Below, piece after piece: positions 333 to 10,554 of a stretch of 22,130 nt of DNA. Source of the DNA: Actinomycetes bacterium. GTDB taxonomy: Bacteria > Actinomycetota > Acidimicrobiia > Acidimicrobiales > Microtrichaceae. The DNA lies in contig JAFAFN010000114.1 in assembly GCA_023423475.1 (NCBI GenBank), positions 1-22,130 on the forward strand, in the 5' to 3' direction. Both the position numbers and the translations under genes were made by a program. The notes beneath the pieces were generated by a model. The model was not told where the DNA came from, made no database searches, and saw only the letters and a list, made by a program, of their open reading frames with translations. How positions within the stretch are numbered: position 1 is the first letter of the stretch; every line of letters starts with the position of its first letter.

Positions 333-832
333 GATCCGCCGAGCTCCCGGTGCACCGTGATGGCCCTGGCGACCAGTCCGTGGGACTCGAAGAAGTTCTT
401 GGTGTGCCGATCACCCGGCATGGCGTGGGCGTCGATGCCCACGCAGTGCTGAGCGACGGCCCACGCCACCGCATCGTCCATCAGTGCGGCACCCACTCCC
501 ACGTCACGAGCGGGCGGCTCGACGAAGATGTCGGACACCTCGGCCACCAGCCGTCCGTCGCCGAGCACGACGAGTCGGACGACGGCGTAGCCGACGGCCA
601 CGCTGCCGATGCAGCCGAGGCTCACTCGGGCGTCCGGGTCGTCCAGGTCGGCGCGCAGGCTGTCGAGCGGCGGGTCCGGCCGGGCCGAACGCAGCAGGTG
701 GACGACGCCCCCTCGTTGGGCGTGCAGGTGTGCTCGGGCGGCGGTGTCGAGGCGGACGAGCTCGTCGAGGTCGTCGGTGGTCGCGGCGCGGACCACGGGA
801 CCGAGCGGCTCCGCGACGACGTCGGTGTCCAT
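329..832 (-). CDS. GNAT family N-acetyltransferase
   Basis: The 167-residue protein has the size and layout of a single GNAT domain, which transfers an acetyl group from acetyl-CoA to an amine. The N-terminal part (VRAATTDDLDELVRLD) is a typical first strand and helix. Motif A is clear at roughly residues 107-122: VSDIFVEPPARDVGVGAAL, with the R-x-x-G-x-G pyrophosphate loop that binds CoA. The C-terminal NFFESHGLVAR is the usual final helix and strand. The ATG start lies 15 bases after the stop of the DUF8129-like gene, and the stop overlaps the Nudix start as ATGA. These three genes therefore look like one transcription unit. The acceptor substrate cannot be told from sequence. Confidence 0.85.
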   Translation of the reverse strand: MDTDVVAEPLGPVVRAATTDDLDELVRLDTAARAHLHAQRGGVVHLLRSARPDPPLDSLRADLDDPDARVSLGCIGSVAVGYAVVRLVVLGDGRLVAEVSDIFVEPPARDVGVGAALMDDAVAWAVAQHCVGIDAHAMPGDRHTKNFFESHGLVARAITVHRELGGS

Positions 833-847
833 CGACAGCCCGGCCGC

Positions 848-1345
848 TCAGCCGGCGAGCAGCTGTGCGACGCGGTTGAGGATCGTCTGACGGTTGCGGT
901 GGGCCAGCTCGTAGGCCTGTACCGCCAGGAGCTCGTCGGTCTCGAGCGTCGCCAGTCGGGGCACCACCTGCGACGCCGCCAGGCTGTCGTAGTCCTGCAC
1001 CGGCAGCTCGGACTCCGCTGGCGCTGCGCGCAGCGGAGTGACCTCCGCGATCTCGGCGACGGGGTCATCGGCCGCTGGCGGATCCTCGACGACCGTCAGA
1101 TCGGGGACGTCGGCATCGAGCACCGACAGCACGTCCACGCGCTCGGGGGTCGGACGACCTGCGGGCTCATCCGACGGGCTGGGTGCGAGGAACCCGAGGC
1201 ACGGTGCCATCGCCGCGAGCGACCGGGCGAGGGCCGCCTGCTGGCGGGTGCGCTCGATGAGCTTCGGCACGGCGCCCACCACGGCCTCGACCACGTCGAG
1301 GGGCAACGGTCGCGAGGTGGACTCGGAGGTGGGCGTCTCGGTCAT
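848..1345 (-). CDS. Conserved actinobacterial protein with DUF8129-like C-terminus
   Basis: This is a 165-residue protein of unknown function. The N-terminal part (about 14-50) is an amphipathic helical segment, DVVEAVVGAVPKLIERTRQQ, followed by an acidic, proline-rich linker. The C-terminal 45 residues, with YDSLAASQVVPRL, then LETDELLAVQAYE and HRNRQTILNRVAQL, resemble a short helical domain seen at the end of many actinobacterial proteins. I associate it with DUF8129 and lipid-droplet-associated proteins, from memory only. I chose ATG 1345 because GGAAG precedes it and conserved-looking sequence begins there; the open frame runs further upstream, but that part is Arg/Pro-rich and has no family character. 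It sits between the acidic zinc protein and the GNAT gene on the same strand. Confidence 0.65.
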   Translation of the reverse strand: MTETPTSESTSRPLPLDVVEAVVGAVPKLIERTRQQAALARSLAAMAPCLGFLAPSPSDEPAGRPTPERVDVLSVLDADVPDLTVVEDPPAADDPVAEIAEVTPLRAAPAESELPVQDYDSLAASQVVPRLATLETDELLAVQAYELAHRNRQTILNRVAQLLAG

Positions 1346-1404
1346 GTGCTTCCAGCTTGCCTCGTCGGGGCCCGACGAGGCGGTCGGAGTCCGGTGTCCC
1401 GGAG

Positions 1405-1911
1405 CTACTTCTTGGCGGCGACCTTGAGTCGCTTCTCGACGATGGGGATCGACGGGCACGGGTCGTACCCCTCGGGGCACTCGAGACGGCCCAGTCGGCC
1501 GAACTGGCGCGGGTGCACGATCATGAAGCAACCCGTGCAGGTGAACTCCTCGGCCGACTTGGCGGCGACGCGTTCTCCGACGTCGGGGTCGCTGGTCCCC
1601 TCCGGGACCTCGTCCTCTTCTTCTTCGTCATCGGTGCCCGCAGCGATGCGGTCCTTGAGGATCGCATCGAGGTCGGCCTCGACGTCGTCGGGGTCGAGAT
1701 CTTCGTCGTCGTCCTCGTCGTCGTCGCCAGCGGGCTTGCGGCGCGCGGTGGGGACGTCGTCCTCGTCCTCGTCATCGTCGGCTCCCTCGGCGTCGTCCTC
1801 GACGCCCGGGAGGTCGACGGCGTCGTCGAGCTCGTCGTCGAGGTCCTCCTCGGAGAGTTCCTCTTCTTCACTGTCGACGTCGTCGGCATCGATGTCGATG
1901 TCTTCGTCCAA
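1405..1911 (-). CDS. Acidic DUF4193-like protein with C-terminal zinc-binding cysteines
   Basis: The 168-residue protein is extremely acidic over residues 1-105, with long Asp/Glu runs. Its C-terminal third is a small domain with Cys125-x-x-Cys128, Cys145 and Cys152, probably one zinc site. The segment EEFTCTGCFMIVHPRQF resembles the DUF4193 family of actinobacteria (EFTCSSCFLVHHRSQL from memory), whose function is unknown. The start is a TTG: a stop lies two codons upstream in frame and no ATG or GTG occurs in the N-terminal half. GGACGGA sits six bases before the TTG as a plausible ribosome site. The acidic part is longer than I recall for DUF4193. It may be a nucleic-acid mimic or an RNA polymerase-associated factor, but that is speculation. 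Confidence 0.65.
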   Translation of the reverse strand: MDEDIDIDADDVDSEEEELSEEDLDDELDDAVDLPGVEDDAEGADDDEDEDDVPTARRKPAGDDDEDDDEDLDPDDVEADLDAILKDRIAAGTDDEEEEDEVPEGTSDPDVGERVAAKSAEEFTCTGCFMIVHPRQFGRLGRLECPEGYDPCPSIPIVEKRLKVAAKK

Positions 1912-1966
1912 GATCTATCCGTCCACTCACACGGTCGCGGCCGCTTCCGGCTGGAAGTCGGGCCGC

Positions 1967-1972
1967 ATCATA
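1967..1972 (-). promoter_or_regulatory. Candidate -10 element (TATGAT) upstream of acidic zinc protein
   Basis: Read on the minus strand, TATGAT differs from TATAAT at one base and lies in the 86-base spacer between the ThyX-like stop and the TTG at 1911. A start about seven bases downstream would give a leader of about 49 bases. No convincing -35 hexamer is present at 16-18 bases, so this is a moderate call. Confidence 0.4.
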
Positions 1973-1997
1973 GACACACATCGTGTCGGGCGCAGCG

Positions 1998-3623
1998 TCA
2001 GTTGGTGCTGGCCCTACGCTCCTCTGCGCGTCGCTCGGCCTGGAGACGTTCGAGGTCGGGGCCGGCGCTGTGGTCGACGAAGGTCATCATCTCGGCGATG
2101 GCTCGATGACCTGCCTGTTCGGCGATGAGCCGGTGCATCTCCTGGCCGACGGAGCGGTAGCTGGGATGGCCCTGGACCGACGTGCGGAGCTCGATCAGGT
2201 GCATGGCCTCTCGGGCGTTGAACTGCATGACGTAGCGGATCCGATAGGCCAGCGACACCGCATAGGCAGCTCGCTCGGGGAAGCGCTCCGCGAGGTCGCT
2301 CCACAGGTTGGCCGACGTCTCCATCGCCTCGTCGAAGCGTCCGGACAGACCTGCTTCGTCGATGGCGACCGGCCGCGTGTAGCCGTGTCGGGGGGTGAGC
2401 TCCTGCCACTCGATGGTCATCAGGCGGTGGCGTTGCAGGTCGCGGAACGCGCCGTAGTCGGACACGACGTCGAAGCGGTAGTCGGTGCGCTCGAGCGCCC
2501 TGCCCGGCTTGTGGCGTCGGTTGGACCGCTCACCGACGTAGGACCGGACGATCGAGATCCGGTCGTCGGTCGACATCTGGCGAACCCGGTCGAGCAGCTG
2601 CGTCTCGGCGAGCCCGGTGTAGGGATAGAGCATCGCGGCGATCGCCTTGACCTCGCCCTCGGGGTCCCAGTCGACGAGGGTGACCGTCGGAGCGGACGGA
2701 GCGGTGACCTCGTCGCCGGCGAGCAGCTCGTAGGCGGTGGTCTCCATGGCCCGGCGGTTCGAGGCCATGTACTCCGAGGTCGCCTGGCCCCGGTCGGGCA
2801 GGTCGACCCTGCGCAGGAAGCTGGGCACGACCTTGCGGAGCTCGACGAGCATCAGCTCGGCGTACTGGCGGGCCTCCGGCAGCGGATGGGCCCGCATGCG
2901 CAGCAGCAGCGACTCGAAGCCCTGGCCCGAGCCGTAGATGCCCACGTTCGACAGCGACGCCGCGGGCAGGATGCCCCGGGTCGCGTCGAGTGCCTTGGCG
3001 CGGATCGCCTGGCGGTAGACGAAGTCGGAGTCCTGCTCGCTCTTGGGATGGCGTTCCCTGAAGTGGTCCTGCAGCGTCCGGGCGAGCTCGCCGTAGGTGT
3101 CGAAGAGCCGGTCCATGTCGCCGACGTAGCGCGCGCCGAGGTTGGACGCGAGGACCTCGGGATCCCGGTGGTAGCGGTAGCGACCGCCCAGTCGCTCGTC
3201 GTAGGGGATGTAGCGGGTCGACTGCTCCAGGTAGGACATGAGCCGTCCCCACTCGAGCACCTTGGTGAGGAGGTTCGAGGCCTGTTCGCACGCCAGGTGC
3301 ACTCCCCCGAGTTGGGCCACGCTGTCGTCGCCGTACTCGAAGAAGACGCGGTCGTAGAGCTGCTCGGCGCGCTCGACGCCGACGGTGGCGTCCGCGCTCT
3401 CGTCGTCGGTGATGTCGAGGTCGCCGACGAACTCGTCGAGGAACAGCCGGCGGAGCGACTTCGCGGAGCGCGAGTAGCGGGCGAACAGCGCGCCCTTGAC
3501 CACCTCTGGCAGGTTGACCAGCGCGAAGACGGGCCCGTCGAGGTTGGAGAAGTACCGACGGAGCACGGAACGCTCATCGTCGGTGAACTGCTCGGTCACA
3601 TACGTCGGAACAGGCGCATTCAC
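1998..3623 (-). CDS. Tandem ThyX-like (FAD-dependent thymidylate synthase family) protein
   Basis: The protein has 541 residues, about twice a normal ThyX (about 220-250). ThyX makes dTMP from dUMP with FAD and methylenetetrahydrofolate, using the motif RHRxxSxNExSxR. Both halves look ThyX-like. In the first half, WGRLMSYLEQSTRY (125-138) matches the motif, but RHR has become WGR. In the second half, LQRHR (396-400) keeps RHR, followed by a divergent LMTIEWQELTPRHGY. The second half also has NAREAMHLIELR (469-480), matching the conserved Asn and Arg near the ThyX C-terminus; the first half has a weaker counterpart near 232-243 (SGQGFESLLLRM). Each half thus keeps different catalytic parts. 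The GTG start at 3623 lies seven bases after TAGTCT, which fits leaderless initiation. Whether it makes dTMP is uncertain, so no gene symbol is given. Confidence 0.85.
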   Translation of the reverse strand: MNAPVPTYVTEQFTDDERSVLRRYFSNLDGPVFALVNLPEVVKGALFARYSRSAKSLRRLFLDEFVGDLDITDDESADATVGVERAEQLYDRVFFEYGDDSVAQLGGVHLACEQASNLLTKVLEWGRLMSYLEQSTRYIPYDERLGGRYRYHRDPEVLASNLGARYVGDMDRLFDTYGELARTLQDHFRERHPKSEQDSDFVYRQAIRAKALDATRGILPAASLSNVGIYGSGQGFESLLLRMRAHPLPEARQYAELMLVELRKVVPSFLRRVDLPDRGQATSEYMASNRRAMETTAYELLAGDEVTAPSAPTVTLVDWDPEGEVKAIAAMLYPYTGLAETQLLDRVRQMSTDDRISIVRSYVGERSNRRHKPGRALERTDYRFDVVSDYGAFRDLQRHRLMTIEWQELTPRHGYTRPVAIDEAGLSGRFDEAMETSANLWSDLAERFPERAAYAVSLAYRIRYVMQFNAREAMHLIELRTSVQGHPSYRSVGQEMHRLIAEQAGHRAIAEMMTFVDHSAGPDLERLQAERRAEERRASTN

Positions 3624-3630
3624 GCCGCTG

Positions 3631-3636
3631 AGACTA
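3631..3636 (-). promoter_or_regulatory. Candidate -10 (TAGTCT) for leaderless ThyX-like mRNA
   Basis: TAGTCT on the minus strand fits TAnnnT, and the next seven bases end exactly at the GTG start, so transcription would begin at or next to the start codon. There is no Shine-Dalgarno in this seven-base spacer. The same geometry recurs at several other starts in the window. No clear -35 is seen. Confidence 0.55.
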
Positions 3637-3674
3637 GGGCCCGGCCGCCGATGCGCCGGTGATGCCCGGTAGCC

Positions 3675-4823
3675 TCAGACGAGGCGTTCGAGGGGGTCGA
3701 GCCAGCAGTCGACGATGGTCGCGGCCATCGCCTTCGCCCCGTCGATCACGGCACGATCGCCGGCGTCGCCACGGGCGTGCGCTGCGAACTCGGGGGTGTG
3801 GATGGACACCCCCGGCGGGGCGACCGCCACGAGCGGGTGGATCGACGGAACCAGGTGGCTGACGTTGCCCATGTCGGTGCTGCCGACGACGTGACCGACG
3901 ACGTCGGGATCGGCGAAGGGGCGTCCGAGGTCGGTCGCGTGGCGGTGGTAGCGCTCGAGCAGTCGCGGATCGTCGACCATGTCGTCGTAGGGCGGGTCGA
4001 CCCAGCGGTGGGTCATGGTGCAACCCGCGGCGCGCGCCCCGGCGTCGAGGCACTCGAGGACCCGCGCCTTGAGCGATTCGAGCCCGGCGACCGTCGGTGA
4101 CCGCACGTACCACTCGGCGGCTGCATGGCGCGGCACGATGTTCGGCTGCTCGCCCGCCTCGGTGAAGATGCCGTGCACCCGCTCGTCGTCACGGATGTGC
4201 TGGCGCAGCGCGGCGACGTTGACGTAGCCGAGCACCGCCGCGTCGAGCGCGTTGCGTCCCAGGTGCGGAGCCGCCGCGGCGTGCGAGGCCCTGCCGTCGT
4301 ACTCGACGATCAAGCGCTGGATGGCGAGCGTTGTGAGCGTGGGCAGGTCGTGGTCGGCCGGATGCACCATCATCGCGACGTCGACGTCCGAGAACGCACC
4401 GTCGCGGATCATGAAGACCTTGCCGCCGCCGCCCTCCTCGGCCGGGGTCCCGAGGATCCGCAGGCGTCCGCCGAGGCGTTCCGCGAGCGTCGCCGCGGCG
4501 AGACCGGCGCCGAGTCCTGCCGCCGCGATCACGTTGTGGCCACAGGCGTGGCCGATGTCGGGCAGGGCGTCGTACTCGCAGATGACGGCCACCGTGGGGC
4601 CCGTCGTCCCGACCGACGCGCTGAAGGCGGTGTCGAGTCCGTGGGCGTGACGGATGGTCTCGATGCCCTCGGCCTCGATCACGTCGCAGAGCAGGTCATG
4701 GGCGTGGTGCTCGGCGAAGCAGAGCTCCGGGTCGTCCCAGATGCGGTGCGACACGTCGAGCAGCACGTCCGCTCGGCGGTCGACCTCGGCGAGCACGGCG
4801 GCGCGGGCCTCGTCGGGGGTCAT
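3675..4823 (-). CDS. M20-family amidohydrolase (PM20D2/AbgB-like)
   Basis: The 382-residue protein has the full length of a single-chain M20 metallo-amidohydrolase. These enzymes use two metal ions to cleave amide bonds of acylated or aminobenzoyl amino acids or of dipeptides. Metal and catalytic motifs are visible: DIGHACGHN (89-97), PAEEGGGGK (127-135) with the catalytic Glu, MMVHP (151-155), and a dimerisation-domain entry GRASHAAAAPHLGRNALDA. The last metal ligand is probably in SHLVPSIHP. CGHN rather than CGHD points to the PM20D2/AbgB-like branch. The ATG start is preceded by GGAAGAG and follows the MDR gene by 42 bases on the same strand, so the two are probably cotranscribed. The exact substrate is unknown. 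Confidence 0.88.
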   Translation of the reverse strand: MTPDEARAAVLAEVDRRADVLLDVSHRIWDDPELCFAEHHAHDLLCDVIEAEGIETIRHAHGLDTAFSASVGTTGPTVAVICEYDALPDIGHACGHNVIAAAGLGAGLAAATLAERLGGRLRILGTPAEEGGGGKVFMIRDGAFSDVDVAMMVHPADHDLPTLTTLAIQRLIVEYDGRASHAAAAPHLGRNALDAAVLGYVNVAALRQHIRDDERVHGIFTEAGEQPNIVPRHAAAEWYVRSPTVAGLESLKARVLECLDAGARAAGCTMTHRWVDPPYDDMVDDPRLLERYHRHATDLGRPFADPDVVGHVVGSTDMGNVSHLVPSIHPLVAVAPPGVSIHTPEFAAHARGDAGDRAVIDGAKAMAATIVDCWLDPLERLV

Positions 4824-4865
4824 CGACTCACTCTTCCACGGACGGGACGGTCGCAGCCGCCACGT

Positions 4866-5852
4866 TCACTCGGGATGCTCGAGCACGATCTTGCCGAGCT
4901 GATCGGCACTGCGCAGACGGTCGAGTGCACGTGGGTACTCCGAGAGGGGCAGCACCTCGTCGATGACCACCGGGAGCCCCTCGCCCATCAGCTCGGTGAC
5001 GTGGCGGAACTCCGTCTGGCTGCCACAGCTCGCCCCGATGATGTCGAGCTGCTTGAAGAACAGCCGTGGCAGGTTCAGCTCGACCTTGGGGCCGGACGTC
5101 CCGCCGCACACGCACATGCGCCCGCCGTGGCGCAACGTCCGCACCGCGAACTCCCAGGTGGCCGGACCGACGCTGTCGACGACGATGTCGGCGGTCACCG
5201 GGTACGGCTTGGTGGAGTCGAACCAGTCGGTCGCGCCGAGCTCGACCGCACGGCGACCCTTGGCGGCATCTCGTGAGGTGACGTAGACGTTGCAGCCGAT
5301 CTGTCGGGCGAGGATCAGCGCCCACGTCGCCACACCGCCGCCGATGCCCGTGACGAGCACCGTGTCGGACGGCTGGATGCGCGCACGACGCAGCAGCCGC
5401 CATGCGGTCGTGCCGCACACGGGGTACGACGCGGCTTCGGCCCAGCTGCGATGCGGCGGCTTGCGCTCGAGCTGGTGTGCACCGACCACGCAGAACTCGC
5501 CGTGGCCACCCCAGCAGTGCTCGCCGAGGAGCCGCATGCCCGGATCGAGCACCGAGTCGTCGCCGCGCTCCAGCGCCTCGGCGGGCACGAGCGCGGTGTT
5601 CACGACGACCTCGTCGCCGACCTGCCAGTCGGTCACGCCCTCGCCGACCGATTCGACGACCCCGGCGACGTCGTTGCCGGGCACGTGGGGGAACGCAGGA
5701 GGCTTCGGCAGACCGGTCGTGAGCCACAGGTCCATGTGGTTCAGCGCCGAGGCCCGAACCGCCACCCGGACCTGCCCGGGGCCGGCGATCGGATCGGGGA
5801 CCTCGCCCCACACGTACTGGCCGGGCGACTCCGGCAGGTGCCATGCATACAT
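4866..5852 (-). CDS. Zinc-independent MDR oxidoreductase (quinone-reductase-like)
   Basis: This is a 328-residue medium-chain dehydrogenase/reductase. The N-terminal catalytic domain has ASALNHMDLW and PGNDVAGVVESVGEG. The positions of the catalytic zinc ligands (usually Cys and the His of GHE) are Asn and Asn, so it resembles quinone oxidoreductases or enoyl reductases that use NADPH without zinc. The Rossmann part has VTGIGGGVATWALILARQIG (about 161-180) and then TSRDAAKG, where Ser-Arg suggests NADPH preference. The frame is open far upstream, but ATG 5852 starts the family-like sequence MYAWHLPE and lies seven bases after TACCCT, consistent with a leaderless mRNA. It heads a likely pair with the M20 amidohydrolase. 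The substrate is unknown. Confidence 0.85.
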   Translation of the reverse strand: MYAWHLPESPGQYVWGEVPDPIAGPGQVRVAVRASALNHMDLWLTTGLPKPPAFPHVPGNDVAGVVESVGEGVTDWQVGDEVVVNTALVPAEALERGDDSVLDPGMRLLGEHCWGGHGEFCVVGAHQLERKPPHRSWAEAASYPVCGTTAWRLLRRARIQPSDTVLVTGIGGGVATWALILARQIGCNVYVTSRDAAKGRRAVELGATDWFDSTKPYPVTADIVVDSVGPATWEFAVRTLRHGGRMCVCGGTSGPKVELNLPRLFFKQLDIIGASCGSQTEFRHVTELMGEGLPVVIDEVLPLSEYPRALDRLRSADQLGKIVLEHPE

Positions 5853-5859
5853 GTCGTGC

Positions 5860-5865
5860 AGGGTA
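5860..5865 (-). promoter_or_regulatory. Candidate -10 (TACCCT) for leaderless MDR mRNA
   Basis: On the minus strand TACCCT is followed by seven bases and then the ATG at 5852. It fits the TAnnnT-plus-seven geometry seen at other starts here. No Shine-Dalgarno precedes the ATG and no -35 is evident. Confidence 0.45.
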
Positions 5866-5904
5866 CCGAGAAGGCTGCGGGACGCGTCCCGCGGTCGCGT
5901 CGAT

Positions 5905-6531
5905 TCAGACGACGACCGTGACGGCGTCGGGAATGCACTCGACGCGGAGGCCGGCGACCCGCCCCATCGGCGCGCCGTCGAGCCACACGTGGTGCGGCCC
6001 GTCGAGCTCGAAGGTCGTGACACGCCGCGTCGTGAGATCCGGATGCGGCACGTGGGTCCCGGTGCGTGCCCTGGCTCGCCCGGTGCGTCGTTGGCCGGCG
6101 GGCAGCGATCCCTCGGTGAGGTCGAAGCGGCCGTCGCCGGGATGCGCCCGTGGGCCGAGGTCGTAGGGCCCGACGAACGAGCCGTTGACGATGATCCATG
6201 TGGGTCCCGCCCAGAGCCGCCCGGAGCGGTGTTCCGTCGCGACGAGGTGGGCAACGAGCACGTCCCGTCGACCGTCGAGCTCGACCACGCCGAGATCGAC
6301 GGGGAATCGGACTCCCGACCCGGAGCGCAGCACGACCGCATCGTGGCGTGGTGCTCCCAGCGAGCGGTGCAGGTCGCCGCCGGTCAGCCCGATCTCGGGA
6401 CGGCCGTCCGAGGTCGTCCACGACGGCAGTCCGCTGAGGAACTCGCCGGCGGCACGGTCCGAGTCGAACACCGGCGCGTCCGGTGCGAGTGGCCCGGGCT
6501 CGCCCCAGGACTCGCCCTTGCGGATGCTCAC
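5905..6531 (-). CDS. DAGK/YegS-like C-terminal domain protein
   Basis: The 208-residue protein resembles the C-terminal beta-sandwich part of diacylglycerol kinase/YegS-type lipid kinases. Supporting segments are IIVNGSFVGPYDLGPRAHPGDG, where lipid kinases have N-x(5)-G and A-x-x-x-DG, and the end LDGAPMGRVAGLRVECIPDAVTVVV, which matches the usual DGE-plus-final-strands ending. The N-terminal ATP-binding part with its GGDGT motif is absent; a GGDL occurs instead at about residue 52. It may therefore be a non-catalytic or redefined member, and I do not assign kinase activity. The GTG start overlaps the helY stop as GTGA, so it is translationally coupled and is the last gene of the tat-helY operon. 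Confidence 0.65.
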   Translation of the reverse strand: MSIRKGESWGEPGPLAPDAPVFDSDRAAGEFLSGLPSWTTSDGRPEIGLTGGDLHRSLGAPRHDAVVLRSGSGVRFPVDLGVVELDGRRDVLVAHLVATEHRSGRLWAGPTWIIVNGSFVGPYDLGPRAHPGDGRFDLTEGSLPAGQRRTGRARARTGTHVPHPDLTTRRVTTFELDGPHHVWLDGAPMGRVAGLRVECIPDAVTVVV

Positions 6532-9275
6532 GGCCCGGTCTCGTCGGTGATCCCGGACTCGTCGGTGATCCCGGACTCGTCGGTGATCCCGGTCTCGTCG
6601 GTCTCGTCGTCCTCGCCGGGCCGTGACGACGCGGCGATCACTCCCCGGACGAGCGCGCCGGCGGCGGACCGAGCCGATGCCCTGGTCGTCGCGTCGGGCG
6701 CGACCTCGGCGACCTGTCCGAGCAGGTCGACGAGCTGTCGGACGTTGCGGACGAAGTCGCCGCCGGTCAGGTCCTCGTCGAGGATGTGATCGAGGTGCTG
6801 GCCGGTCGCCCAGGACCACGCGGCCGACGCGAAGCCCCCTTCGGGAGCACGGGTGCGGGGCACGCGGTGGCGCTGCTCGAGCGATCCGAGCGCGTCCGCC
6901 ACCTGGCCGAGACGTCGGTAGCGATCCCGCACCGCGAGCGTGGGCAGCACCGGCTCGGGCGGTGGTTCGGCACTGCGGTGCTCGTAGGTGATGCAGCTGA
7001 GGGTCGCGGCGAGCTCCGCCGGCTCGAGTCCGTCGAAGATGCCGCGGTCGATCGCCATCGAGATGAGCAGGTCGCACTCGTGGTAGATCCGACGGAGCCG
7101 CTCGCCCGACGCGGTCAGCCGCCACCCGTCGACGTGGTCCGTCGCCCGCAGCACCGACACGACGTCGTCGAAGCGCGCCACCAGTCCGCCGCCCCTGCGC
7201 TCGATCTCGGACTCGATGTCCGCGATCTCGCGATCGAAGCGCGACAGCGCACCGTGGGCATCGAGCAGACGACGCCGGTCCGGGTGGTGGTGCAGCGGAT
7301 GGTCCTCGAGCGCACGTCGGGGGTCGACCTCGAGGTCGGACCGGGCCGCGCCCGCGGTGCTCGCTCCGATGGCATCGGGGTCGGCGGGTTCGGGGGCGGA
7401 TGCGTCGTCGCGCTCGGGCAGCCTCGCGTCACGCAGCGCGGCCGCGGCCGCACGGCGGTACTTCGGCTCCTGCGGCTTGTTCGGGGTGGGCAACCGGACG
7501 TGCGCGACGGCGACCACCGGTTCGGTGACGTTGCCCGCGTCGAGGGTGACCAGGTTCGCCCGGTGGTTGGTGGCGCGGACCCGCACCGCTCCCCCACGTC
7601 GGTGCGAGACGGCCAGCACGACGAGGCGTCGTCGGCCGTGCGGTGTGCGGCGCTCGATGACGTCCCCGGGCCGGAGCCCTCGGAGCGAAGCGTCGATCGC
7701 TGCTCGACCGCCCTGACGGCGTCGTCGCCGCTCCTCCTGCACCGCGGACTCCAGCTCGGCGTAGCCGGCGACGTCGAAGACTCGGTGCTCGGTGGTGGTC
7801 GACGGGTCCTCGAGCGCGGCCCGTTCGTCGACGAGTCGGTCCTGTCGTGCCCGGAGCCGCACCACCGCACGGTCCGCCTGGAACTGTGCGAAGGACCTGG
7901 CGAGCACCTCGTGGGCCTGCTCACGGTCGTAGCGCTCCACCAGGTTCGCCGACATGTTGTAGGTCGGGCGGAACGACGACGACAGCGGGAACTCCCGGCT
8001 CGCGGCCAGGTTCGCCACCTGTTCGAAGGTCGCGAACGGGCTCCACAGCACCACCGCCGCGCCGGTGTCGTCGATGCCACGGCGACCTGCTCGACCGGTC
8101 AGCTGGGTGAACTGCCCCGGGGAGAGGAACTCGTGGCGTTCGCCGTTGTACTTGCTGAGGCGTTCGATGACGACCGCACGTGCCGGCATGTTGATGCCGA
8201 CGGCGAGCGTCTCGGTCGCGAACACGACCTTGAGCAGCCCGAGGTTGAAGCACTCCTCGACGGTCTCGCGGAACGCTGGGATCATGCCGGCGTGGTGCGC
8301 CGCGACGCCGGCCTCGAGGGTCGCCAGCCAGCGCTCGTAGCCGAGCACGTCGAGATCGTCGTCGCTCAGCGCCGTGGTGCGGCGTTCGGCGATCGAGCGG
8401 ATGCGGTCCCGCACCGCTGCGTCGGTCAGGCGGACGCCGGCGTCGAGCAGCGCCCGAGCGGCTTCGTCGCAGCCATTGCGGCTGAAGATGAAGTAGATCG
8501 CCGGCAGCAGGCCCTCGTCGTCGAGCCGCTCGACGGTCTCGAGTCGCCTCGGCGTGACGAAGCGCGAGCGGCGTCGGCGCCCGTCCTGCTGTCGCTGGCG
8601 GTGCTGGTCCGCGTCGAAGCGGTGCCCTTCGGGGTTGCTGCGCCCGTCGACGAGCAGCGGGATCAGGTGGTCCCGCTCGGCGCTCCGGTCGCCGATCAGC
8701 ATCAGCGGATCGAGCCGGATCGGCCGTTCGTGCTCGATGACGATCTCGGTGGGGCCGCGCAGTGCGGTGATCCACTCCCCCAGCTCGACCGCGTTCGACA
8801 CCGTCGCCGAGAGGCAGACGAAGCCGGCGTGTCGCGGCGCGTGGATCAGGACCTCCTCCCAGACCGGACCGCGGTACGCGTCCTGGAGGAAGTGCACCTC
8901 GTCGAGCACGATCCAGCGGAGGCCGTCGAGCGTCGGCGAGGACGCGTAGATCATGTTGCGCAGCACCTCGGTGGTCATCACGACCACGGGCGCGTCGCCG
9001 TTGATCGCGTGGTCACCGGTGAGCAGGCCGACGCGGTCATCGCCCAGCACGGCACGGAGGTCGTGGAACTTCTGGTTGGACAGCGCCTTGATCGGGGCGG
9101 TGTAGAAGCACTTCGAACCCTCTGCGACGGCGAGCTCCACCGCGTGCTCGGCCACGACGGTCTTGCCGGCACCGGTCGGCGCGGCGACGAGCACGTTCGA
9201 GCCGGCGTCGAGGGCCTCGATCGCCGCCTGCTGGAACCCGTCCAGCCCGAACCGGTGGTCGAACAGGGCGCTCAG
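6528..9275 (-). CDS. helY: HelY, Ski2-like DEAD/DEAH-box RNA helicase
   Basis: With the proposed start the protein has 915 residues, the usual size of actinobacterial HelY, a Ski2/Mtr4-type ATP-dependent RNA helicase. Motifs in order: Q-motif region FGLDGFQQ (about 9-16), Walker A APTGAGKT (32-39), DEVH (125-128), SAT (156-158), and motif VI QLTGRAGRRGID (391-402). A DSHCT-type helical domain fills the C-terminus. The gene order tatA/B-tatC-helY matches the one known from Mycobacterium. The start is unusual: no ATG, GTG or TTG precedes the Q motif in frame, and the first option after it is GTG 9194. A CTG at 9275 overlaps the tatC stop as CTGA and keeps the Q motif, so I chose it. The stop overlaps the next gene as GTGA. 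Confidence 0.85.
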   Translation of the reverse strand: MSALFDHRFGLDGFQQAAIEALDAGSNVLVAAPTGAGKTVVAEHAVELAVAEGSKCFYTAPIKALSNQKFHDLRAVLGDDRVGLLTGDHAINGDAPVVVMTTEVLRNMIYASSPTLDGLRWIVLDEVHFLQDAYRGPVWEEVLIHAPRHAGFVCLSATVSNAVELGEWITALRGPTEIVIEHERPIRLDPLMLIGDRSAERDHLIPLLVDGRSNPEGHRFDADQHRQRQQDGRRRRSRFVTPRRLETVERLDDEGLLPAIYFIFSRNGCDEAARALLDAGVRLTDAAVRDRIRSIAERRTTALSDDDLDVLGYERWLATLEAGVAAHHAGMIPAFRETVEECFNLGLLKVVFATETLAVGINMPARAVVIERLSKYNGERHEFLSPGQFTQLTGRAGRRGIDDTGAAVVLWSPFATFEQVANLAASREFPLSSSFRPTYNMSANLVERYDREQAHEVLARSFAQFQADRAVVRLRARQDRLVDERAALEDPSTTTEHRVFDVAGYAELESAVQEERRRRRQGGRAAIDASLRGLRPGDVIERRTPHGRRRLVVLAVSHRRGGAVRVRATNHRANLVTLDAGNVTEPVVAVAHVRLPTPNKPQEPKYRRAAAAALRDARLPERDDASAPEPADPDAIGASTAGAARSDLEVDPRRALEDHPLHHHPDRRRLLDAHGALSRFDREIADIESEIERRGGGLVARFDDVVSVLRATDHVDGWRLTASGERLRRIYHECDLLISMAIDRGIFDGLEPAELAATLSCITYEHRSAEPPPEPVLPTLAVRDRYRRLGQVADALGSLEQRHRVPRTRAPEGGFASAAWSWATGQHLDHILDEDLTGGDFVRNVRQLVDLLGQVAEVAPDATTRASARSAAGALVRGVIAASSRPGEDDETDETGITDESGITDESGITDETGP
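6541..6594. repeat. Three 18-bp tandem repeats near the helY 3' end
   Basis: Three units of TCGTCGGTGATCCCGGAC follow one another, the third with one base changed. They sit at the 3' end of helY and encode repeated ITDESG-type hexapeptides just before the stop. The 18-base period preserves frame. This acidic tail lies outside the helicase core. Confidence 0.9.
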
Positions 9276-10072
9276 GTGGCGGCGCCCGAGCTCATCTCGG
9301 CGCGTCGTCGTCGCCGCAGGAAGAGCCGACCCAGCAGGATCGACAGTTCGTAGAAGAGGTACATCGGCACCGACAGCGCAGCCAGCGAGACCGGGTCGCC
9401 CGAGGGTGTGATCGCTGCGGCGAGCACCACGATGATGAGCACCGTCGGCCGTCGCCAGCTGGAGAGCTGCTGGGGAGTGACGATGCCGATCAGCTGGAGG
9501 CTGACCAACAGGATGGGGAACTCGAAGCCCACGCCGAAGGCCATCATCATGAACAACGACAGCCGGACGAACTCGGTGGGCCCGGAGCGGATGTCGATGT
9601 CGTCACCGCCGACACGGACCAGGAAGTCGACCGCCTGGGTGAGCGTGAAGTAGGCGACGACGGCGCCGAGCAGGAACAGCAGGAACGCGGACGCCGTGAA
9701 GGCGATGGCGTATCGGCGCTCACGCTTGTAGAGCCCCGGTGCGATGAACCGCCAGAGCTGCCACAGGATGATCGGCATGGCCAGGAAGACCCCGCCGTAG
9801 CCCGCGACCTTGAGTCGCAGGCTGAACGGGTCGAGCAGGTTCGTCACCAGGAAGTTGCAGTCCGCCGCGCCGTTCACGTTCTGCAGCGCCGAGCAGTAGG
9901 GCTGGTTCAGGGTGTCGATGAACAGCGGGTACAGGAACCACGCGGGGATCATCAACAGGAAGACCGCACCCGCGCAGATGATCAGGCGCTTGCGCAGCTC
10001 GCGCAGGTGGTCGCCGAGTGTCATCTCGGCTCCCTCGCGTTCGGCGCCCTTGAGGATCGTGGGTCGCTTCAT
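9272..10072 (-). CDS. tatC: Twin-arginine translocase subunit TatC
   Basis: TatC is the polytopic receptor of the Tat pathway, which exports folded proteins carrying twin-arginine signals. The 266 residues hold the six membrane spans expected. Conserved features are the cytoplasmic HLRELRKRL (22-30), PFSLRLKV at the end of the first periplasmic region, and FGVGFEFP with the functionally important Glu. A basic tail RLFLRRRRR follows the last span. The ATG at 10072 overlaps the tatB stop as ATGA. A second in-frame ATG at 10024 is preceded by GAGGGAG at good spacing and starts directly at MTLGDHLREL, so the true N-terminus may be 16 residues shorter. The stop overlaps the proposed helY start. 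Confidence 0.95.
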   Translation of the reverse strand: MKRPTILKGAEREGAEMTLGDHLRELRKRLIICAGAVFLLMIPAWFLYPLFIDTLNQPYCSALQNVNGAADCNFLVTNLLDPFSLRLKVAGYGGVFLAMPIILWQLWRFIAPGLYKRERRYAIAFTASAFLLFLLGAVVAYFTLTQAVDFLVRVGGDDIDIRSGPTEFVRLSLFMMMAFGVGFEFPILLVSLQLIGIVTPQQLSSWRRPTVLIIVVLAAAITPSGDPVSLAALSVPMYLFYELSILLGRLFLRRRRRAEMSSGAAT

Positions 10073-10554
10073 CGCTCCGGCGTGGTCTCGGTGCCGGTGT
10101 CGGCCGCGACGTCGGTCGCGTCGTCGGTGGTGCCGTCGGTCGTGTCGTCGGTCGCATCCGCGGTCGTGTGCTCGGGCGAGTCCGACGCCGCAGCGTCACC
10201 GGCAGCGTCCGTCGCCGCCGCAGCTTCGGCCGCATCTGCCGCGGCATCGGCAGCGTCGGCCGCCGCCTGGGCCTCGGCCTCCTTGCGCGCCCGCTCCTCT
10301 GCCTCGGCCTCGAGGGCGTATTCCGCCAGCTTCTGGCGGGGGCGTGCGGCGAGCTCGCCGAGCTCCTTCAGAGGCTGCATCGAAGGGTCGTCCATGACGC
10401 CCTTGACGTCGTCACCGAGCCCGTCGGCCATCGTGCGCAGCTTGTGCAGCATCTTGCCGGCGCTCCTGGCCATCTCCGGGAGACGATCGGGGCCGAGGAC
10501 CACGAGCGCGACGATGAGGATGATGAAGAACTCACCGGCGGTGAAGTTGCCCAT
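10069..10554 (-). CDS. tatB: Sec-independent translocase protein TatB (TatA/B family)
   Basis: The 161-residue protein has the TatA/B layout: an N-terminal membrane helix (about 5-20, EFFIILIVALVVLG), a short hinge, an amphipathic helix and a hydrophilic tail. The hinge reads LGPDRLPEMAR; GP-x-x-LP is characteristic of TatB rather than TatA, which usually has FG. TatB works with TatC in recognising twin-arginine substrates. The tail from about residue 80 is Ala/Glu-rich and then Asp/Thr-rich low-complexity sequence. It starts eight bases after the small membrane gene, and its stop overlaps tatC as ATGA. No separate tatA is visible here; one may lie elsewhere in the genome, or this protein may serve both roles. 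Confidence 0.88.
   Translation of the reverse strand: MGNFTAGEFFIILIVALVVLGPDRLPEMARSAGKMLHKLRTMADGLGDDVKGVMDDPSMQPLKELGELAARPRQKLAEYALEAEAEERARKEAEAQAAADAADAAADAAEAAAATDAAGDAAASDSPEHTTADATDDTTDGTTDDATDVAADTGTETTPER

Follow-up and report, generated by a model that had tools for sequence, protein, structure and literature searches.

In a contig from an Actinomycetes bacterium (assembly GCA_023423475.1, contig JAFAFN010000114.1; class Acidimicrobiia, family Microtrichaceae), a gene on the minus strand encodes a double-length ThyX-like protein that, judged from its sequence and its relatives, is very probably a thymidylate synthase of ThyX chemistry in which two fused and specialised domains would share one composite active site split between the halves. 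The stretch analysed, positions 1 to 22,130 of the contig, is called the window. Active-site residues that ordinary ThyX carries in every monomer are distributed between the two halves of the double protein and are invariant across its aligned relatives, and among sampled genomes of the class Acidimicrobiia the double and ThyA largely exclude one another. The features of the gene are given below in the order of the protein, with Thermotoga maritima ThyX as the reference numbering and with counts that refer to the aligned actinobacterial-branch (376) and firmicute (115) sets defined in the next section.

1998..3623, minus strand: the whole gene, a two-domain ThyX-like protein of 541 amino acids (aa), GTG start at 3623, stop included
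2829..3491, minus strand: first (N) half, a divergent ThyX domain, residues 45-265, profile alignment to canonical ThyX at E 6e-6
3327..3329, minus strand: D99, at the H53 position; Asp in 376/376 actinobacterial-branch sequences, His in 115/115 firmicute relatives
3243..3251, minus strand: W125-G126-R127, at the RHR position of the first half, with R78 and H79 lost and R80 kept
3210..3236, minus strand: SYLEQSTRY, residues 130-138, the active-site loop, in which E133, S135, R137 and Y138 correspond to E86, S88, R90 and Y91
2976..2978, minus strand: R216, corresponding to R147; Arg in 376/376 and 115/115; its PolB counterpart is R166', a contact to the phosphate of deoxyuridine monophosphate (dUMP) (PMC5003785)
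2067..2699, minus strand: second (C) half, ThyX fold, residues 309-519, profile alignment to canonical ThyX at E 2e-13
2499..2522, minus strand: NRRHKPGR, residues 368-375, a motif conserved within the actinobacterial branch and missing from the firmicute branch; R369, R370, P373 and R375 in 376/376, H371 in 357/376
2424..2432, minus strand: R398-H399-R400, the RHR motif (R78-H79-R80), in 376/376; R-H-x-R in 115/115 firmicute sequences
2262..2264, minus strand: Y454, standing where the second half would carry R147; the Arg is lost (Arg in 0/376 and 0/115)
2184..2219, minus strand: NAREAMHLIELR, residues 469-480, with R480 corresponding to R174; R480 in 376/376 and 115/115

Two ThyX-related domains with divided active-site residues

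The Pfam family PF02511 (Thy1) matches two stretches of the protein, with 112 bits for the whole chain against a cut-off of 24.8, and the NCBIfam ThyX equivalog TIGR02170 also matches two stretches, yet stays below its own cut-off (46.6 versus 87.9 bits). Two Thy1 domains thus lie in a single chain, and each half is homologous to the matching half of other double proteins, which bears out the double length claimed in a preliminary description of this DNA. The second half has the ThyX fold and aligns structurally to ThyX at about 16% identity. The first half may share this fold: its order of helices and strands follows that of ThyX in a whole-chain predicted model (predicted local distance difference test, pLDDT, 87.1; predicted template modelling score, pTM, 0.86), and it is related to ThyX by profile. 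Searched by sequence against the PDB, the full chain returned no match at E 1. Chance motifs and a local assembly fault are ruled out by double-length relatives on many contigs.

Conservation was assessed in two branches. For the actinobacterial branch, 408 loci and proteins with a domain match were reduced to 375 by removing duplicates and those shorter than 500 aa, and the addition of the window's protein gave 376 sequences; one of the 375 (P0001) is the window's own database entry. The firmicute set of 115 consists of 120 matches less five of 858-900 aa that carry an endonuclease domain. Nine residues (E133, S135, R137, Y138 and R216 in the first half; R398, H399, R400 and R480 in the second) are identical in all 376 aligned doubles, which span 39-100% identity. 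The same nine are kept in all 115 firmicute and phage relatives, with one residue inserted inside RHR (RHNR in 112, RHMR in 2, RHCR in 1), and in 6/6 plasmid and phage records. Identity between the firmicute sequences and the window's protein is 20-28%, with a median of 24%. The motif order of a one-domain ThyX, in which RHR is followed by S-x-x-E-x-S-x-R-Y in the same domain, is not found here: RHR occurs in the second half only and E-x-S-x-R-Y in the first half only, and the second half has no equivalents of E86, S88, R90, Y91 and R147. The complementary motifs described from the window's sequence, SYLEQSTRY in one half and RHR with NAREAMHLIELR in the other, are confirmed, and their key residues hold throughout the set.

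This division can be compared with sites that have been solved in ordinary ThyX and in PolB, the UMP/dUMP methylase (UMP, uridine monophosphate) of polyoxin biosynthesis; the papers concerned are cited for their passages on the active site. In PolB with 5-Br dUMP, one monomer supplies Arg82, His83, Arg86 and Arg193, and its neighbour supplies Glu94', Ser96', Arg98' and Arg166' (PMC5003785). By our own assignment of PolB residues to those of T. maritima, all four of the neighbour's contacts are present in the first half, and three of the four from the other monomer are present in the second half (R394, R398 and R480; H83 is replaced by D395). The reciprocal site is left with one contact of four (R242) and none of four. 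In the ThyX of PBCV-1, Gln75 and Arg182 come from monomer A and Ser88 from monomer B (PMC3498832). The residues retained by each half thus track the supplying monomers in the solved PolB and PBCV-1 structures, which fits the idea of a shared site. In T. maritima ThyX, mutants of S88, R90 and Y91 react much more slowly and R174 aids dUMP activation (PMC8316439).

Profile comparison between the branches matches first halves with first halves at E 2.4e-32 and second halves with second halves at E 1.4e-22, while matches of first with second halves are weak (E 0.002 and 0.013). The firmicute first half is related to canonical ThyX at E 1.8e-15. First halves are therefore orthologous between branches, as are second halves, which argues for one shared duplication and fusion in which both halves are ThyX.

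Genome content and the probable thymidylate synthase role

The preliminary description had left open whether the protein is still a thymidylate synthase or has turned to a new flavin reaction, and had named a search for an ordinary ThyX or ThyA as a check; made on relatives, that search favours a thymidylate synthase. In 12 relatives' genomes, among them that of Aquihabitans sp. G128 (a complete chromosome from the class Acidimicrobiia), the Thy1 matches all pair up as halves of a single long frame, and ThyA was found in 0/12. A sample of 197 genomes of the class contains Thy1 in 177, and the double protein was matched in 169. Ordinary ThyX (220-229 aa) is present in 8 of the 197, all eight without the double. 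The ThyA family PF00303 was found in 4 of the 177 Thy1-positive genomes versus 19 of the 20 Thy1-negative ones (Fisher p 1.3e-21, uncorrected for kinship), and the double is present with no PF00303 match in 163/197. Two genomes with one partial Thy1 match each (listed as G028 and G128) were not counted as doubles when ThyA and thymidine kinase were cross-counted. This exclusion pattern across the class genomes is that of a stand-in for ThyA. Among the class genomes sampled, the double is usually the sole known thymidylate enzyme, so it very probably performs that role.

Thymidine salvage alone is ruled out as an explanation: thymidine kinase (PF00265) is found in 101 of the 197 genomes and is lacking in 79 of the 163 that have the double and no ThyA. 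The distribution of FolA, the dihydrofolate reductase (DHFR), which is found mainly alongside ThyA, points the same way. ThyX returns tetrahydrofolate and hence spares FolA, and FolA (PF00186) was found in 13/197 genomes, namely 11 of 23 with PF00303 versus 2 of 174 others (Fisher 2.9e-10, uncorrected for kinship), which is consistent with such sparing.

Of 296 genomes sampled from the whole phylum, 94 had a match; six with only a short match to the second half were left out, so that 88 count as carrying the double. PF00303 was found in 3 of these 88 versus 78 of the 208 others, many of the 78 being weak matches and the 208 being unsorted by ordinary ThyX content.

Proposed assembly of the site and competing readings

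We infer the three-dimensional site, the oligomer and the reaction from these residue and genome patterns. The second half would replace the RHR- and R174-supplying monomer, on the flavin and uracil side, and the first half the one that contributes the E-x-S-x-R-Y loop together with R147, on the ribose and phosphate side of the nucleotide. Each pair of halves would then retain one composite site for dUMP and flavin adenine dinucleotide, the reciprocal site being dead. In ThyX, H53 comes from a third monomer and contacts folate and flavin, with N85 holding H53 (PMC11940539). Here the first half holds the H53 position as well, and the twofold axes of the tetramer would put the H53 role and the E-x-S-x-R-Y and R147 roles on different monomers, so that two chains probably have to contribute to a site. 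By symmetry, the expected assembly would be two double chains joined as a dimer, with two working sites, to each of which one chain's second half and the first halves of both chains contribute. The covalent pseudo-dimer that had been proposed earlier accordingly gains support from the partition as far as the shared site is concerned; the role of H53 suggests that a single chain would not complete it.

A number of observations weigh against this reading. The split is not clean: R127 is kept in the first half of all 376 doubles, and R242, which falls on R174 when the half is aligned by profile to ten canonical ThyX sequences (in preference to M243, an assignment by eye), is Arg in 366/376 of the actinobacterial branch. 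The substitution of WGR for RHR in the first half holds only in part, as the last Arg of RHR remains. The columns at 125-127 among the 376 read W338 R36 H2, G371 P5 and R376, so that an Arg does occur at the R78 position in 36, never with a following His. The claim that each half may have kept only the residues that it supplies to a shared site is thus supported by the monomer sets of the solved structures, by a pattern common to both distant branches and by genome content that favours thymidylate synthesis, and qualified by R127 and R242. The firmicute branch lacks R127 and has Arg at the R242 position in 30/115 only. N163 and R165 change halves, being N469 and R471 of the second half here and N232 and R234 of the first half in firmicutes, and were discarded as partition evidence on account of this swap. 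The letters E.S.R occur by pattern in the loop region of the second half in 6/376 and 1/115. H53 and N85 are both replaced here (D99 and L132), and the N85 position is Thr in firmicutes. Residues 121-140 are predicted less surely than the rest of the whole-chain model (block pLDDT 69), and the first half modelled alone is poor (pLDDT 62, pTM 0.42).

On the genome side, four genomes have both the double and PF00303, the latter at full length in one (G108), in two pieces in another (G021) and as a partial match in two (G069 and G175). One genome (G205) has neither Thy1 nor PF00303, thymidine kinase being present. No PF00186 was found in 10 of the 19 genomes with ThyA only, which makes FolA only partly informative, and the absence counts, the 163 included, are to be read in the light of genomes that carry no completeness figures. 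As an observation in its own right, at 48396-49669 of contig 8 in G108 the full-length ThyA is followed 8 bases on by FolA, a thyA-folA-like pair in a double-bearing genome.

Among the competing readings, the one with the most to recommend it, though we consider it improbable overall, is a thymidylate synthase whose folate or methylene-donor site has been altered in the actinobacterial branch; it is compatible with the composite-site reading. The folate-stacking H53 is D99 in 376/376 versus His in 115/115 firmicute sequences, and L132 stands in place of N85, the residue that holds H53, but another residue, for example H371 of the NRRHxPGR motif (a position that is a gap in 115/115 firmicute sequences), may substitute. 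That the protein has ceased to be a thymidylate synthase and now catalyses a different flavin reaction, for example methylating some other nucleotide in the way that PolB methylates UMP, is very unlikely. Replacement of H53 and N85, the new conserved motif and the score below the ThyX equivalog cut-off would suit such a change, and PolB is itself a ThyX relative with a changed substrate (PMC5003785), but all dUMP contacts of the neighbouring monomer are retained, and the 163 class genomes with the double and no PF00303, together with the restriction of ordinary ThyX to genomes in which the double is missing, favour thymidylate synthesis. Catalysis by the second half alone, assembled like ordinary ThyX with the first half as a structural leftover, is scarcely credible, as E86, S88, R90, Y91 and R147 are gone from the second half and yet invariant in the first (376/376 and 115/115), which is unlike a leftover.

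Relatives, gene surroundings and biological meaning

A protein search that scored only the 8000 candidates sharing the most words found all 8000 passing E 1e-3, the 120 listed being 533-590 aa long. In a scan across species genomes 583 relatives were found; the titles of the best 80 are mostly Acidimicrobiia or unclassified Actinomycetota. Four of these loci (L001, L007, L018 and L020) are titled as a Bifidobacterium breve metagenome-assembled genome, yet carry the gene among Acidimicrobiia-like neighbours, and the titles look wrong. By tblastn, the double was found on 10 plasmid records (Euzebya, Miltoncostaea, a Parabacteroides distasonis record, Bacillus and Paenibacillus), on one phage (Tunturi_5) and on a few viral contigs; a viral scan with the Tunturi_5 protein gave no match. 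The double of the P. distasonis record (NZ_OY725790.1, labelled plasmid) is 46-47% identical to that of the window and keeps all nine key residues, and its occurrence in a Bacteroidota record is likely to reflect horizontal transfer. A search from the Bacillus form returned 897 proteins; many of the best 120 come from Bacillus-type contigs of about 200 kb and from Thermoactinomyces, Laceyella, Desmospora and other genera. The five firmicute and phage doubles of 858-900 aa (P0272, P0286, P0288, P0292 and P0295) have an extra PF14528 domain, one of them also PF05204, and the insert resembles an intein with a homing endonuclease within the ThyX gene.

The immediate neighbours of the gene in the window are as follows.

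1405..1911, minus strand: downstream neighbour, a DUF4193-like acidic protein whose Pfam match is weak and under the cut-off; relative in 69/80 loci
3675..4823, minus strand: upstream neighbour, an M20 amidohydrolase; relative in 59/80 loci

They belong to a minus-strand run at 1405-10554 of TatA/B-like protein, TatC, DSHCT helicase, zinc-type alcohol dehydrogenase-like protein, M20 amidohydrolase, double ThyX and DUF4193-like protein, which is largely conserved. In 80 loci, many of which end inside the flank, nearby relatives of the window's neighbours on the same strand also include GNAT (66), DSHCT helicase (64) and TatC (47). The gene surroundings are a stable housekeeping stretch; a tRNA scan found none. 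In the phage Tunturi_5 (locus 460-4548), dUTPase, helicase, dCMP deaminase and a double ThyX of 518 aa lie together, with dCMP deaminase directly before the double and dUTPase two genes before dCMP deaminase; this cluster is a phage gene set for the production of deoxythymidine monophosphate. On a Euzebya plasmid, dcd lies three genes ahead of the double.

The existence of a double ThyX was already known. Most Chloroflexi have only a domain-duplicated, uncharacterised ThyX (Valas and Bourne 2009, PMC3224940), and the passages of that paper on the duplicated protein are silent on split active-site residues. The Chloroflexi protein and the present double, set together by description only, are likely to be the same family. 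No later study of duplicated ThyX and no account of a residue partition was found in the open-access literature, subscription journals being mostly outside this scope, and the partition and the class-wide role appear to be new. The double resembles the ThyX of T. maritima (TM0449), PBCV-1 and Mycobacterium tuberculosis in the fold of its second half, in Thy1 on both halves, in its active-site residues and in a genome role replacing ThyA. It is unlike them in its two fused domains, in carrying RHR and ExSxRY on different domains, in its low identity in structural alignment and in its score below the TIGR02170 cut-off. PolB differs from the double in being a single-domain homotetramer of an antibiotic pathway (PMC5003785).

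A more specific version of the composite-site reading, possible though on balance doubtful, is that of an obligate pseudo-heterodimer with half of the ThyX sites, in which the folate side has been rebuilt in the actinobacterial branch by the change of H53 and N85 to D99 and L132 and the addition of NRRHxPGR to the second half. If so, methylenetetrahydrofolate or methylene transfer would be handled unlike in every studied ThyX, and ordinary ThyX inhibitors would not be transferable to this enzyme. Ordinary ThyX sites are built from three identical monomers, so that one mutation affects all roles together; here the halves hold separate roles, and the residues of a single site could be altered one monomer role at a time. 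The double would document how a homo-oligomeric enzyme becomes a pseudo-heterodimer with half of the sites, its branches differing in His or Asp at the H53 position and in the half that holds N163 and R165. Thymidylate synthesis across much of a bacterial class would then fall to a protein that has been little studied.
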